Below are positions 32,491 to 46,900 of a stretch of 64,000 bases of DNA, piece after piece. This DNA is from Bolinopsis microptera (lineage: Eukaryota; Ctenophora; Tentaculata; Lobata; Bolinopsidae). Location of the stretch: assembly GCF_026151205.1 (NCBI RefSeq), contig NC_087082.1, forward strand, positions 9,804,901 through 9,868,900, written 5' to 3'. Each line of letters begins with the position of its first letter. Positions within the stretch are counted from its first letter, which is position 1. The translations under genes were made by a program, and so were the position numbers. The notes beneath the pieces were generated by a model. It was not told where the DNA came from and did no database searches. It worked only from the letters and a program-made list of their open reading frames with translations.

Positions 32491-35045
32491 AAGTGTAATT
32501 GAACTGAAGTGATAGCTTAGGAACCATAATTCACAACATTCTGCCGACTCAAAACTTTGAAATAGTGACCAGAATTGATCGGTGATTCAGTTTTGAAGTT
32601 TAAAAGTGTAATTGAACTGGAGTGATAGCTTAGGAACCACAATTCACAACATTCTGCCGTATCAAAACTTTAAAATAGTGACCAGGATTGATTGGTGATT
32701 CAGTTTTGAAGTTTAAAAGTGTAATTGAACTGGAGTGATAGCTTAGGAACCATAATTAACAACATTCTGCCGACTCAAAACTTTGAAATAGTGACCAGGA
32801 TTGATTGGTGATTCAGTTTTGAAGTTTAAAAGTGTAATTGAACTGGAGTGATAGCTTAGGAACCATAATTCACAACATTCTGCCGTATCAAAACTTTGAA
32901 ATAGTGACCAGGATTGATTGGTGATTCAGTTTTGAAGTTTAAAAGTGTAATTGAACTGGAGTGATAGCTTAGGAACCATAATTAACAACATTCTGCCGAC
33001 TCAAAACTTTGAAATAGTGACCAGGATTGATTGGTGATTCAGTTTTGAAGTAAGAAAGTGTAATTGAACTGGAGTGATAGCTTATGAGCTATAATTCACA
33101 ACATTCTGCCGTCTCAAAACTTTGAAGTAGTGACAAGAATTGATTGGTGATTCAGTTTTGAAGTTTTGAAGTGTAATTGAACTGGTGTGATAGCTTAGGA
33201 ACCACAATTCACAACATTCTGCCGTCTCAAAACTTTGAAGTAGTGACAAGAATTGATTGGTGATTCAGTTGTGAAGTTTAAAAGTGCAATTGTGGTAATT
33301 TCTAACAACTATATAGTAGCTAACTTTATGCTCAAGTTTTATTAACTTACCATGACCACGTTATTAGCTCAGGAACCATAATTCACAACATTCTGCCGAC
33401 TCAAAACTTTGAAATAGTGATCAGAATTAATTGGTGATTCAGTTTTGAAGTTTAAAAGTGTAATTGAACTGGAGTGATAGCTTAGGAACCATAATTCACA
33501 ACATTCTGCCGACTCAAAACTTTGAAATAGTGACCAGAATTGATCGGTGATTCAGTTTTGAAGTTTAAAAGTGTAATTGAACTGGAGTGATAGCTTAGGA
33601 ACCATAATTCACAACATTCTGCCGTATCAAAACTTTGAAATAGTGACCAGGATTGATTGGTGATTCAGTTTTGAAGTTTAAAAGTGTAATTGAACTGGAG
33701 TGATAGCTTAGGAACCATAATTAACAACATTCTGCCGACTCAAAACTTTGAAATAGTGACCAGGATTGATTGGTGATTCAGTTTTGAAGTAAGAAAATGT
33801 AATTGAACTGGAGTGATAGCTTATGAGCTATAATTCACAACATTCTGCCGTCTCAAAACTTTGAAGTAGTGACAAGAATTGATTGGTGATTCAGTTTTGA
33901 AGTTTTGAAGTGTAATTGAACTGGTGTGATAGCTTAGGAACCATAATTAACAACATTCTGCCGACTCAAAACTTTGAAATAGTGACCAGGATTGATTGGT
34001 GATTCAGTTTTGAAGTTTAAAAGTGTAATTGAACTGGAGTGATAGCTTAGGAACCATAATTCACAACATTCTGCCGTATCAAAACTTTGAAATAGTGACC
34101 AGGATTGATCGGTGATTCAGTTTTGAAGTTTAAAAGTGTAATTGAACTGGAGTGATAGCTTAGGAACCATAATTCACAACATTCTGCCGTATCAAAACTT
34201 TGAAATAGTGACCAGGATTGATTGGTGATTCAGTTTTGAAGTTTAAAAGTGTAATTGAACTGGAGTGATAGCTTAGGAACCATAATTAACAACATTCTGC
34301 CGACTCAAAACTTTGAAATAGTGACCAGGATTGATTGGTGATTCAGTTTTGAAGTTTAAAAGTGTAATTGAACTGGAGTGATAGCTTAGGAACCATAATT
34401 CACAACATTCTGCCGTATCAAAACTTTGAAATAGTGACCAGGATTGATTGGTGATTCAGTTTTGAAGTTTAAAAGTGTAATTGAACTGGAGTGATAGCTT
34501 AGGAACCATAATTAACAACATTCTGCCGACTCAAAACTTTGAAATAGTGACCAGGATTGATTGGTGATTCAGTTTTGAAGTAAGAAAATGTAATTGAACT
34601 GGAGTGATAGCTTAGGAACCATAATTCACAACATTCTGCCGACTCAAAACTTTGAAATAGTGACCAGAATTGATCGGTGATTCAGTTTTGAAGTTTAAAA
34701 GTGTAATTGAACTGGAGTGATAGCTTAGGAACCATAATTCACAACATTCTGCCGTATCAAAACTTTGAAATAGTGACCAGATTGATTGGTGATTCAGTTT
34801 TGAAGTTTAAAAGTGTAATTGAACTGGAGTGATAGCTTAGGAACCATAATTAACAACATTCTGCCGACTCAAAACTTTGAAATAGTGACCAGATTGATTG
34901 GTGATTCAGTTTTGAAGTTTAAAAGTGTAATTGAACTGGAGTGATAGCTTAGGAACCATAATTCACAACATTCTGCCGACTCAAAACTTTGAAATAGTGA
35001 CCAGAATTGATTGGTGATTCAGTTTTAAAGTTTAAAAGTGCAATT
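32491..35045. repeat. 113-bp satellite with 226-bp higher-order dimers
   Basis: About 22 head-to-tail units, for example GTGTAATTGAACTGGAGTG at 32606 and 32719. Two variants often alternate (CCGACTCAAAAC versus CCGTATCAAAAC, and ATTCACAAC versus ATTAACAAC), giving a dimeric higher-order unit. The array is interrupted at 33290-33360 by AATTGTGGTAATTTCTAACA with following sequence. That sequence reappears at the array's right end (35040-35120), so part of the array plus its flank was duplicated. Confidence 0.95.
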
Positions 35046-35120
35046 GTGGTAATTTCTAACAATAATATAGTAGCTAACTTTATGCTCAAGTTTTGTTTAC
35101 TTACCATGACCACGTCATTA

Positions 35121-40900: not shown

Positions 40901-43900
40901 TTTTAATCAATTGCCATACATACAGATATACATATATATTCAGGGATAGACGCTTTGCCAGTCAATTGTAGCCTGTATTTAATTGTCCATAGATTCAAAA
41001 GTATAAAAGATACAACCATTTCCGACCACAGGTCATGAAAATAATTGTTTACACTTTAGTTTACATTGTATAAACAAATTATTTGACGTCATGAACACCC
41101 CTTGATGACGTCATCAAGTTAACCGTTTTTAAAACTTGATTTTTGACAAAGTAATCACTTTTAAAATCGATTTTACACCATTAAGAATTAATTTTATTCA
41201 AGATTTGAGGACATATTGAAGTTAGATAATTGTTTAAGCATTCTGAAAATCTACCGGAAAGTTTTTCTACCTTGCTCCTTCATAAAGATATTCGTCATTG
41301 AAGTTTGTACTTTTTTGAAGAATTATTTTATAAAAACGTCAATTTTGCGATTTAGTATTCTCTGGTGTTGGGCCATGCCTTGGGTTGTGGAGCTCAGTTC
41401 TGCTTCCTATAGGTATAAATTGTGCATTAGGCTAGTTTTAAAGTTGAAAATCGAAAAGTTGCACACGTGGGGACACGCCCAAATTGATTAAAAATTGCTA
41501 AAATCACCGAAAATTTGTGTTTTCACGATTTTTATCAACTTTGGAGTCCCGTTGTGATCCAAGTTCTATTTGAAATCTTTTGAAACTTTGCACGCTTATC
41601 AAACTATATATAAAATACCGCTATACAAAATTGCTAAAATTGATTAAAAATTACCCTGACATTATAATCAAAAATAGATGATATTTGACCAAAACCCATA
41701 ATCATGGGTAGAGTGGACCGCTGCCAGTGTCTCTCTTTGCATGCTTATCAAGCTATATATAAAACAATTACATGCAAAAAGTTACGGCGATTCAATATTG
41801 GATGCGCACGCAACGTCCGCTCAAAGTTTGCACGTGCGAAAGGTGAGAATTTTGCTCATTCGTGATTTCCAACAAATTCTGCTTTGCCACGACAGTTTAA
41901 TGTCATTATAAATGAATTTAATGCCAACTTGAATGAGTATCAAGTGGCATATTCAGTCAGTGATCGACCGATATGCTTACCTAAACACAAGGAAATGTTT
42001 TTAAAGGAAAAATTTCGAAATTGTTGAAACTTCCTCCTTATTTATGAAGATATCAGTTTATATTTCGACTTTATAAATAAAGTACCCTGACATTATAATC
42101 AAAAAGAGATGATATTTGACCAAAACCCATAATCATGGGTAGAGTGGACCGCTGCCAGTGTCTCTCTTTCCCAAACAAAAGGAAATGATATTAATTTGAT
42201 TGACCGTTCTCAAATGCAAAATGATACCGAAAATGAAATATGTCGCTCGCTTTTCCCATTCATTTACAATTGTAATAGATTAAGAAGAACTACCCAAAGG
42301 CAGCTGTACTCGGCAATAAAGATTCAATAAACGTCAGCTAATTCAATAAGTAATAACTACCACCCTTACCCCGAAATACTAGGTATCGACCCGAACGCAA
42401 CCCAAAGAGATTTTTACAGCATCTGATTGATGTACCTAATCAATCGAAACTTATTACAATTCGTAAGCCGTGAATGAATGGGAAAAGCGAGCGACCGATT
42501 TCATTTTCGGTATCATTTTGCATTTGAGAACGGTCAACCAAATTGATATCATTTCCTTTTGTTTGGGAAAGAGAGACACTGGCAGCGGTCCACTCTACCC
42601 ATGATTATGGGTTTTGGTCAAATACATATATACATATTCAGGGATAGACGCTTTGACAGTCAAATGTAGTCAATTGTATCCTAAATTTAAGTTTCCATAG
42701 ATTCAAAAGTATAAAAGATACAGCCATTTCCGACCACAGATCTTGAAAATAATTGTTTACATTTTAGTTTATATTGTATAAAAAAATTATTTGACGTCAT
42801 AAACACCCCTTGATGACGTCATCAAGTTAACCGTTTTTAAAACTTGATTTTCGACAAAGTAATAACTTTTAAAATTGATTTTACACCATTTAAAAGTAAT
42901 TTTTTTCAACATCTGAGGAAATTTTATCTTAGATAATTGTTCAAGCATTCTGAAAATCTACCGGAAAGTTTTCTTATCTTACTCCTTCATAAAGATATTT
43001 GCCTTTGAAGTTAGTGCTTTTTTGAAAAATTATTTTATAAAAACGTCAATTTTGCGATTTAGTATTCTCTGGTGTTGGGCTATCCCTTGGGTTGTGGAGC
43101 TCAGTTCTGCTTCCTATAGGTATAAATTGTGCATTAGGCTAGTTTTAAAGTTAAAAATCGAAAAGTTGCACACGTGGGGACACGCCGAAATTGATTAAAA
43201 ATTGCTAAAATCACTGAAAATTTGTGTTTTCACGATTTTTATCAACTTTGGAGTCCCGTTGTGATCCAAGTTCTATTTGAAATCTTTTGAAACTTTGCAC
43301 GCTTATCAAACTATATATAAAATACCGCTATGCAAAAATTTACGGCGATTCAGTATTGGATGCGCACGCAACAACCGCTCAAAGTTTGCACGTGCGAACG
43401 GTGAGAATTTTGCTCATTCGTGGTTTCGAACAAATTCTGCTTTACCACGACAGTTCAATGTCATTATATATGAATTTAATGGCAACTTGAATGATTATAA
43501 TGTTTTATGTTCAGTCAGTGATAGACCGATATGCTTACCTAAACACAAGGAAATGTTTTTAAAGGAAAAATTTCGAAATCGTTAAAACTTCCTCCTTATT
43601 AATGAAGACATCAGTTTATATTTCGACTTTATAAAGTACCCTGACATTATAATCAAAAAGAGGTGATATTTTACCAAAACCCATAATCATGGGTAGAGTG
43701 GACCGCTGCCAGTGTCTCTCTTTCCCAAACAAAAGGAAATGATATTAATTTGATTGACCGTTCTCAAATGCAAGATGATACCGAGAATGAAATCGGTCGC
43801 TCGCTTTTCCCATTAATTTACAATTGTAAATGTAATAGATTAAGAAGAACTACCCGAAGGCAGCTGTACTCAGCAATAAAGAATCAATAAACTTCAGCTA

Positions 43901-46900
43901 ATTCACTAACTACCAGTACCACCCTTATCCCGAAGGGGGGGGGGGGGGGGGGGGGGGGGGGGTGGGGGGGGGGGGAACCAACGGGCATTAATGGGCATTT
44001 ATGGGCATTAATGGGCATTAATGGGCATTAATGGGCATTAATGGCAGTGGCAGTCTGTGCAAAATTTTAAAATACTGCCATTAATGCCCATACTTTTTTA
44101 TTCGCTTTTGAAACTTTCAGGTCACGTCTATTTCATACCTACAATAAATATCCTGTCTACAGACCTTATTAAAGGTTCATGACGCCCAAAAATAACCCAC
44201 CCTTATATTTTAATATATTGTTGTTATGTAACATATAACTGAGATTAGTCAAAACCGGACCTTTTTATCTGCTTCCTATCCCGAGATATTGGGAGATCTA
44301 ATTATGCTCCCCACTAGGTCAGGATCCTAGGTCAGGGTCCTAGGTCAGGGTCCTAGGTCAGGATCCTAGGTCAGGGTCCTGGGTCAGGGTCCTAGGTACG
44401 GTCAGGGTCCTGGGTTAGGGTCAGGGTCAGGGTCAGGGTTAGGGTCAGGGTCAGGATAAAGGTCAGGGTCAGGGTCAGGGTCAGGGTCAGGGTCAGGGTC
44501 AGGGTCAGGGTCAGGGTCAGGGTCAGGGTCAGGGTCAGAATCAGGGTCAGGGTCCTGGGTCAGGGTCAGGGTACGGTCAGGGTCCTGGGTCCTAGGCTAG
44601 GGTCAGGGTCCTGGGTCAGGGTCCTGGGTCAGGGTTAGGGTTAGGGTCAGGGTTAGGGTTAGGACTTAGGGTTAGGGTTAGGGTCAGGGTTAGGGTCAAT
44701 TGTCGGGAGGTCAATTGTCGCCCACCCGAGCCAGCAAGGCTACGGATCATGCGATACTGATACAGGATCCTAGGTCAGGGTCCTAGGTCAGGATCCTAGG
44801 TCAGGGTCCTGGGTCAGGGTCCTAGGTACGGTCAGGGTCCTGGGTTAGGGTCAGGGTCAGGGTCCGGGTCAGGGTCAGGGTTAGGGTTAGGGTTAGGGTT
44901 AGGGTGAGGGTCCTGGGCCAGGGTCAGGATAAAGGTCAGGGTCAGGGTCAGGGTCAGGGTCAGGGTCAGGGTCAGGGTCAGGGTCAGGGTCAGGGTCAGG
45001 GTCAGGGTCAGGGTACGGTCAGGGTCCTGGGTCCTAGGCTAGGGTCAGGGTCCTGGGTCAGGGTTAGGGTAAGGGTTAGGGTTAGGGTTAGGATTAGGGT
45101 TAGGGTTAGGACTTAGGGTTAGGGTTAGGGTTAGGGTCAATTGTCGGGGGTCAATTGTCGCCCACCCGAGCCAGCAAGGCTATGGATCATGCGATACTGA
45201 TACAGACGAAGAAGGATCATACATCCCGGAAGGATCTCTCCTCAGTGCTCTAGTACCGATTGAAAGCTGGTGCTCATGTGGTCTGTGTATTAGACTGCCA
45301 TCTGAGATAGAGAACTACTACTGTCGAGAAAGCACGTGTCTCATGGTTTCGATTTTTCTATTAAATATGGGCATTAATGTGCATTAATGTGCATTAATGG
45401 GCATTAATGGGCATTAATGGCAGTGGCAGTCTGAGCAAAATTTTAAAATACTGCCATTAATGCCCGTTGGTTCCCCCCCATCCCGAAATACTAGGTATAT
45501 CGACCCGAACGCAACCCAAAGAGATTTTTACAGCATGTGATTGATTGTAAGCCGTGAATGAATGGGAAAAGCGAGCGACCGATTTCATTCTCGGTATCAT
45601 CTTGCATTTGAGAACGGTCAATCAAATTAATATCATTTCCTTTTGTTTGGGAAAGAGAGACACTGGCAGCGGTCCACTCTACCCATGATTATGGGTTTTG
45701 GTAAAATTCACTATACAAGTTTACATCGTTAAAACATAACAAAATATTGCATCCGAATTATTTTATTATCTTTACAAAGATGCCTATTAAACAATTATAT
45801 GCCAAAATTGAATAACAAAACGACAAAAAAAGATGAAAACATTTTAGATTTTTATTAGTTTTGGATGCCTCTGAGCGTTTTAATTACTATTTCATCGAAT
45901 ATTATCATCAATAACTTGCACTTTGTGCTAGGGCAAAGGGCTCTTTCTAATTCGCTCGCCCAAAAATTATCACGTGACTTTGGTTTTTATTGTTTTGCAG
46001 CCGAACAATACAGTTTTACATAAAACCTAATCCCAATTCCCAACTCTAACCCCGAAGCTATCCATAACCCTAACCACAACCCCAACCCTAACCCGAGTCC
46101 TAAACAATCGAATTAGTGTTTTACTAGCCTGTCAAGTGTCACGTGACCAAAATGAAAATGGTGTGGTGCCCATAACTCTCCAGGGAAGCATTTTTACCCT
46201 ACGTCATGGGGTATGATTCGAAATCAGCGTCCAAAAATACGCTGATCTAAAGTAGTTTTATACATACCTTCATAGTCTTTACAAAAGAATTTTTTTTAAA
46301 TTGTGGCGAGCGATTTAGTGGGAGCGAGGGTAAAGTTATGGTTAGGGTGGGTCACAGTAGAGGGTTAGGGATTTGAAACGTCAGGTCGTCAGAGCCATCT
46401 ACTTCTAGTTCTAGAGAAAGTGTTAAACATAGTCACGTGATTCCCTAAAATTCGCAAGTTTTCACCTCCATTTGCGAGCTAGAATTGTTTTGTATTTGCT
46501 AATAACATTTAATGATACCTTGAACAACTTCCGTATTCTCCATCTAACAAGACAAATTACAATTCCAGCAATGACTAGGAGAGAATCTGCTGCCCCCCTC
46601 ACTATTGAGGGATATGCGAGAACATTCGCCGTGCTGGTAGCTAACAGCACTGAATACGATCTTATGGCTCGTATCTCCAGGAGGGTCATTCTAGAGAACA
46701 ACTTCGACAAGGAGCCGGTGCGAATGTTAAGCATTGGAGCCGGAAGAGGACAATTTGAGACAAGGCTGGTGAGGGAACAGGGGCTAAAGTTGGGGTATAT
46801 CTACGCTATCGAGCCGAATCCCGCCCATATTCCGCTGTTGGAGACTGAACTGAAAAGTCTTGATATTACAAAGTACGATATCGACACATCATTCTTCAAC

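Follow-up and report, generated by a model that had tools for sequence, protein, structure and literature searches.

Internal TTAGGG arrays, as revealed by FISH with a telomere probe, are commonly interpreted as traces of ancient chromosome fusion or of break repair. For large heterochromatic arrays, transposition by mobile elements is named as a possible mechanism (PMC6410037). MITEs with hitchhiking microsatellites are also known, including the (GTCY)n MITEs of Coates et al. 2011 and a Xenopus MITE with the Xstir repeat described by Hikosaka and Kawahara 2004, both as cited in a later paper (PMC6947457). Among DNA transposons, the Merlin signature consists of GG termini and target duplications of 8 or 9 bp, with inverted repeats of 24-462 bp (PMC8101967).

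The DNA analysed here, which we call the window, is a stretch of 64,000 nucleotides of Bolinopsis microptera (C11:9804901-9868900) from an assembly of 264.65 Mb in 232 contigs, in which C1-C13 reach chromosome size (15.2-26.2 Mb) and C14 measures only 198 kb. The window holds a telomere-like array, and we consider it very probable that this array is the core of a non-autonomous DNA transposon, D, which sits in an element C, which in turn sits in an element B, that B(C(D)) has moved as a unit, and that D and a further element, T, have spread separately. We observe the boundaries of these elements, their target duplications and junctions, paralogous empty sites, and the numbers of their ends. 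At the locus itself, D lies in C, C in B, and B in an outer host MITE, A, and the array belongs to D (Table 1).

Table 1. Features of the nested locus and its surroundings, in window positions.
Feature	Position	Strand	Remarks
A, outer host MITE with inverted arms of 154 bp	43668..45707; arms 43668-43821 and 45554-45707	.	arms 99% complementary
Sister copy of A without B	42113..42624; arms 42113-42267 and 42470-42624	.	97% (arm comparison)
Paralogous empty target AGTTTATA, corresponding to the D insertion of L043 (C1:16.24 Mb)	42055..42062	+	
Second paralogous empty target AGTTTATA, corresponding to the D insertion of L043	43613..43620	+	
B, non-autonomous transposon	43935..45479	+	TIR GGGGAACCAACGGGCATTAATGG; subterminal GGGCATTAAT repeats (43983-44044, 45367-45420)
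B left target-site duplication ATCCCGAA	43927..43934	.	8 bp, perfect
B right target-site duplication ATCCCGAA	45480..45487	.	
Expanded G run at B left end	43935..43975	+	41 bp including one T; right end is 7 C
C, 3'-truncated copy of a TTAAAGG-ended element	44169..45356	+	
D remnant: telomere-like (TCAGGG/TTAGGG/TCCTGGG) array and D right terminus	44317..45167	+	left terminus GGTACCGCGACAATTG missing
D right terminus GTCAATTGTCGCCCACCC, first copy	44710..44727	+	duplicated along with the array
D right terminus, second copy, then GAG	45150..45167	+	

The first-pass annotation of this DNA had described an inverted-repeat element flanked by a perfect 8-bp duplication, and both parts of that description hold for B. 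Its TIR is present as an exact GGGGAACCAACGGGCATTAATGG at 43972-43994 (+) and 45454-45476 (-), and the duplication is perfect. The same annotation had placed an unoccupied B site in the sister copy of A; the site is there (ACCCCGAA at 42368-42375), but it matches ATCCCGAA at 7 of 8 positions and is near-empty only. The length of the G run at B ends differs widely among copies and ends, with the maximum of 41 at the left end in the window, and the duplication lies outside the run. Elsewhere in the window, the opposite strand has a short, degenerate CCCTAA/CCCAA-like tract (46023-46103), outside A and B, that is partly complementary to the array, and a satellite array with a 113-bp unit occupies 32491-35046 in two blocks whose matches are 93-95%.

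A search of the genome with the B-end pattern, allowing up to one mismatch, found 36 ends at 21 loci, while the reversed control pattern gave 0 matches. Nineteen of the 21 loci, the window included, were fetched, and after removal of the one-ended L006, L011 and L015, 16 two-ended copies were left. That other copies would carry 8-bp duplications too, as the first-pass annotation implied, is borne out: with variable G/C runs allowed for, an exact 8-bp duplication was computed for 10 of the 16, against 0 of 240 control pairings of the left flank of one copy with the right flank of another. The copies short of an exact duplication are L023 (7/8), L004 (6/8), L022 (5/8) and L014 (4/8), together with L007 and L017, which are counted among the six although interrupted C runs put both beyond the reach of the test.

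Six B copies, the window copy included, contain long cargo, and the junction of B with this cargo is common to the copies, the left one in 5/5 and the right one in 6/6. Each of the five two-ended B+C copies has an 8-bp duplication of its own (ATCCCGAA, GTGACGGT, GTTACTAA, TATGTGAT and GAAATGAG). Since the junctions are the same and the duplications differ, the simplest history is a single acquisition of the cargo, which B then moved as a unit. The spread of B+C also looks recent, to judge from the 97.95-100% identity of the non-array segments. A B-family copy at L018 (C11:4776700-4778900), with the duplication GTCGCGCT, holds an open frame that by eye resembles reverse transcriptase; on this evidence, B may have carried other cargo as well.

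The left part of C starts with TTAAAGGTTCATGACG, and the full copies outside B (L009 and L008) finish with CGTCATGACCCTTTAA, so that by eye both have ends of the form TTAAAGG...CCTTTAA. With a TTAA target and AGGG-type inverted ends, C may be a T2/Kolobok- or piggyBac-like element. Inside B, the 3' truncation of C falls at the identical base in all six copies. The GAGCTTAG duplication of D is found on both sides of D inside C at L001, L002, L003, L005, L009 and L008, and thus D has its own 8-bp duplication in 4/5 complete B+C copies, the exception being the window copy. In L010, a third C copy, the left junction of D has diverged and there is no right-end match. Two observations concern the surroundings and coding content of C: in L009 (positions 1-840) C directly adjoins a FLYWCH-MULE transposase frame (Pfam MULE E 2e-15, FLYWCH 1e-10), and a short frame in C that had been likened to a P2X7-type domain was rejected as such, with 0 Pfam families for the 92-aa stretch.

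The array had been read in the first-pass annotation as the cargo of B, and it has indeed moved inside B, but it is the core of D, with D's own GAGCTTAG duplication. Our own earlier reading of B as the sole carrier was dropped once D's own ends and duplications were recognised. In the window D is a remnant. Its GGTCAG/TTAGGG array runs over 44330-45139, no D left end GGTACCGCG was found between 41.5 and 46.5 kb of the window, and both the array and the right end are present twice, through a tandem duplication of about 430 bp (44330-44765 / 44760-45205). The GAG after the second right terminus is interpreted as what is left of the GAGCTTAG duplication. Elsewhere, the order in D is left end GGTACCGCGACAATTGACCCC, CGACAATTGACCCC repeats, telomere-like array, GGGTCAATTGTCGGGG repeats and right end GTCAATTGTCGCCCACCC, which read inward is GGGTGGGCGACAATTGACCCC. 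The two ends are unlike at positions 3-6 (GGTACCGCG / GGGTGGGCG) and then have GCGACAATTGACCCC in common, and the TIR is therefore imperfect.

D is a family in its own right. Its ends, with up to one mismatch, number 313 on the left and 308 on the right, and on C1-C6, where the search for exact ends is complete, a right end lies within 5 kb of 57 of the 98 left ends at spacings of 60-3034 bp. From the 47 unseen pairs shorter than 1.5 kb (pairs of at least 1.5 kb and loci already seen were left out), we drew a seeded random sample of 20. At the fixed boundary, computation gave an exact 8-bp duplication in 13/20 and an exact 9-bp duplication in 3/20 (L070, L079 and L080), while 0 of 380 control pairings reached 8. 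Among the remaining four, L078 has a duplication with an indel, L067 has none, and L065 and L082, which match at 6/8, represent a single insertion that was duplicated. At least nine TTAGGG/TCAGGG units are present in 14 of the 20 copies and 0-3 units in the other 6. In the five longer copies that were fetched (1.6-3.0 kb), the array makes up 66-87% of the element; L103 and L107 have an exact 8-bp duplication, L105 an exact 9-bp one, L106 matches at 7/8, and L104 repeats the insertion of L065 and L082. These long copies were also looked at as a possible autonomous partner, and their open frames are repeat-derived only.

The D insertion of L043 can be compared with DNA that lacks it. When its two flanks are joined, they match window 41997-42126 with 3 mismatches and two gaps and window 43555-43680 with 3 mismatches and one gap, a single copy of AGTTTATA spanning the join in each alignment; the two stretches are paralogous empty sites of the L043 element, in the repeat around MITE A. 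Some D copies share an insertion. L065, L082 and L104 (C2:402352, 210395 and 126321) are one D insertion in near-identical flanks with lengths of 1261, 1302 and 1963 bp, the outcome of segmental duplication and a later change of array length. L041 and L068 (C1:14.60 and 9.47 Mb) have common flanking bases and the same duplication, CTATCCGA; they are not independent insertions and are probably one insertion that was duplicated later.

The history that we propose would begin with the insertion of D into C, the TTAAAGG-ended element, with the 8-bp target duplication GAGCTTAG; the target duplications of D in general are of 8 or 9 bp. C, truncated at its 3' side, would have come to sit inside B, and B(C(D)) would then have relocated as a unit, generating 8-bp duplications at no fewer than five sites, among them MITE A in the window. 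D, and T with its different ends, would have dispersed on their own. We infer that the elements moved by cut and paste, and that after insertion the arrays lengthen, shorten and change their motif in place through slippage.

To see how far this pattern extends among interstitial arrays, we used two samples taken in contig order, the first 100 matches listed for each motif; both fall on contig C1, and the shares given here are thus estimates. The motif (TTAGGG)4 has 4273 overlapping matches, and the first 100 listed form 17 clusters, all of which were fetched. Six of the 17 are D: L029, L035, L037, L041 and L043, with duplications read by eye, and L032, with the right end only. Another six are T (L028, L031, L034, L036, L042 and L044, the last with one end), and three (L033, L038 and L040) are copies, 95-98% alike, of a long inverted repeat whose arms measure about 1 kb. 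The other two, L030 and L039, fit neither D, T nor this hairpin repeat. The motif (TCAGGG)4 has 15396 matches and its reversed control 46; the first 100 listed form 9 clusters, and 9/9 are D, five by listed ends and four by reading (L124-L127), where L124 shows the D left end only. L029 belongs to both samples. Dispersed repeats thus hold 15/17 of the TTAGGG clusters and 9/9 of the TCAGGG clusters on C1, and at least one D or T end adjoins 12/17 and 9/9, respectively, so that most of the sampled TTAGGG clusters (12/17) and all 9 TCAGGG clusters are transposon cores.

T has the ends GGGGTCCGGACTCTAGGGCG, and its right-end pattern, with up to two mismatches, gives 102 matches. We sampled every fifth of the listed matches from the seventh on, 19 loci in all. 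The left end lies within 440 bp at 11/19; at least nine TTAGGG units are present at 8/19, and 11/19 are without such an array. Duplications were counted over the 11 two-ended loci of this sample and the five two-ended T copies of the TTAGGG sample, with the 8/19 that have no left end within 440 bp left out. An exact 8-bp duplication is present in 10 of these 16 and in 0 of 240 controls; the one in L028 sits in a CA microsatellite and is weak. This count, like those for B, the D sample and the longer D copies, was computed, whereas the duplications of D in the TTAGGG sample were read by eye.

The longest pure runs were searched with 33 consecutive TTAGGG units, which gave 604 matches; the 100 listed come from three loci, L122, L121 and L123, none at a contig end. 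L122 (C2:17.218 Mb) has 77 pure TTAGGG units beside a D left end, with the right end past the stretch that was read. D or T ends were looked for at L121 and L123 and were not there. L121 is one more of the long inverted repeats seen at L033, L038 and L040; these have a pure TTAGGG run close to the centre and arms of about 1 kb. L123 (C3:21176300-21178300) holds a pure 103-unit run about 107 kb from the contig end, beside CAGTTCCACGGCT-type repeats.

Next, we considered where the arrays themselves come from. Within D, the array has a fixed strand relative to the ends, with 704 hexamers one way and 3 the other over 20 D loci, and at these loci TCAGGG outnumbers TTAGGG by 533 to 171. The core of L077 (C1:7458905-7459495) is mainly (TTGGGG)n with some TTCGGG, and those of L106 and L127 are mainly TCCTGGG. 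This variation of the core hexamer between copies points to local slippage. A birth and turnover of the arrays by slippage in place is favoured because the motif varies, because GGGTCA is already contained in D's repeated subterminal word GGGGTCAATTG, and because the lengths of L065, L082 and L104 differ. What speaks against slippage is that some cores are long and pure TTAGGG, as the 77 units of L122 are. Together with the 28 TTAGGG units that adjoin the T right end in L044, such cores would be expected if real telomeric or telomerase-made DNA had been captured between transposon ends and then spread. We regard such a capture as unlikely: the cores are unlike one another between D copies, TCAGGG being in the majority, the GGGTCA word is D's own, L074 and L076 have cores of few units or none, and the length differences within the shared insertion indicate that arrays change in place. 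The species telomere motif was sought at 23 contig ends, and none of them is telomeric. The cargo had been called telomere-type in the first-pass annotation; the TTAGGG/TCAGGG array is indeed there, but the core motif differs between D copies, and for the array the term is a description only.

We then asked which enzyme moves the elements. B, D and T each occur in many copies with TIR and target duplication and without transposase, as MITEs do. D pairs span 60-3034 bp, and the long D copies that were read owe their length to array expansion; reading of the D copies showed no transposase frame. The termini are GGGG[A/T]ACC in B, GGTACC / GGGTGG in D and GGGGTCC in T, and all three start with GG. 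Inverted ends are present in B and T, and the ends of D differ at positions 3-6 ahead of their common part. We infer that the mover of B, D and T is a Merlin-type transposase. The Merlin transposase domain DDE_Tnp_IS1595 has 58 matches in the genome, with several open frames of 318-337 codons, and we fetched 13 of these, which represent 12 distinct loci, L119 being the same place as L113. GG inverted ends with an 8-bp duplication are present at 3 of the 12 (L110, L112 and L117), and none of the 12 distinct loci read has D, B or T ends. In four of the fetched stretches with Merlin transposase matches, L116-L119, the inverted arms consist of short tandem repeats (about 11 bp in most) and are reminiscent of B, D and T.

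The first-pass annotation had instead looked to a hAT partner, and 8-bp duplications do suit a hAT-type transposase. Also in favour of such an enzyme is the A at position 7 in 13 of 23 typed D duplications. However, hAT termini are of the C/T-A-G type. Those of B, D and T are GG, T stands at position 2 in only 7 of the 23 typed duplications, and some duplications are 9 bp long, as published for Merlin (PMC8101967). A hAT mover is thus decidedly unlikely in our view, and Merlin fits the GG ends and the 8-9-bp duplications better.

A different question is whether the G-rich tract is a passive microsatellite at all. It could instead be kept because it benefits the element that carries it, for example through the binding of telomere proteins, the formation of quadruplexes or protection from silencing. 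Such mimicry of telomeres is suggested by the telomere-like cores that D, T and the long hairpin, with their different ends, each have in one genome; we rate it as improbable and offer it as speculation.

We return to the transposon cores with the interpretation that such arrays usually receive, that they are scars of chromosome fusion or break repair and that the inverted ends beside them are coincidental. Most short human arrays are attributed to break repair (PMC6410037), and in our data 2/17 TTAGGG clusters and L123 are unassigned. Against this account stand the exact duplications of 8 or 9 bp, which lie at fixed termini and had 0 matches among the controls, the identical junctions at distant loci, the fixed strand orientation and the paralogous empty sites, and we consider it very improbable for the elements described here. 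The first-pass annotation had concluded that transposition, and not fusion or repair, brought the array to this locus; the insertion with target duplication supports it here, but fusion or repair is contradicted only for the D, T and B loci with intact duplications, not across all such arrays of the genome. To a nesting produced by collapsed or mis-joined repeats we give almost no credence, for although assembled array lengths are unreliable and the left G run of B is 41 against 7 on the right, the B-C junctions recur at six loci on the right and five on the left, and the C-D junction at six, all with different flanks.

Transposition can thus disperse telomere-like arrays, which are not necessarily scars of fusion or repair, and where internal telomere-like signals are seen, transposon ends should be checked for before conclusions on the karyotype are drawn. 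The scattering of telomere-like repeats by mobile elements is no longer just a suggestion, as there is now a case in which boundaries, target duplications and empty sites are documented. By title and abstract opening, among the matches listed in openly accessible literature, we found no description of telomere-like arrays as MITE or transposon cores with duplications and empty sites, which is not proof of absence.

The comparison with known systems shows what is shared and what is not. Like Merlin elements, the elements here have GG termini and 8- or 9-bp duplications (PMC8101967), but unlike them D has a GGGTNN array for a core, and the D copies were read without a transposase frame. Like the microsatellite MITEs (PMC6947457), they are short, non-autonomous and both bear and spread a tandem repeat; here, however, the repeat is telomere-like, it makes up 66-87% of five copies, and it occurs in several families of one genome. 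The minisatellite-bearing MITE of Porphyromonas gingivalis also has a tandem repeat within a MITE, but it is bacterial, and its short description does not term the repeat telomere-like (PMC4596501). With interstitial telomeric sequences (PMC6410037), the arrays have in common that they are internal and built of TTAGGG, whereas here single arrays are bounded by transposon ends and target duplications, and one of them has paralogous empty sites as well.
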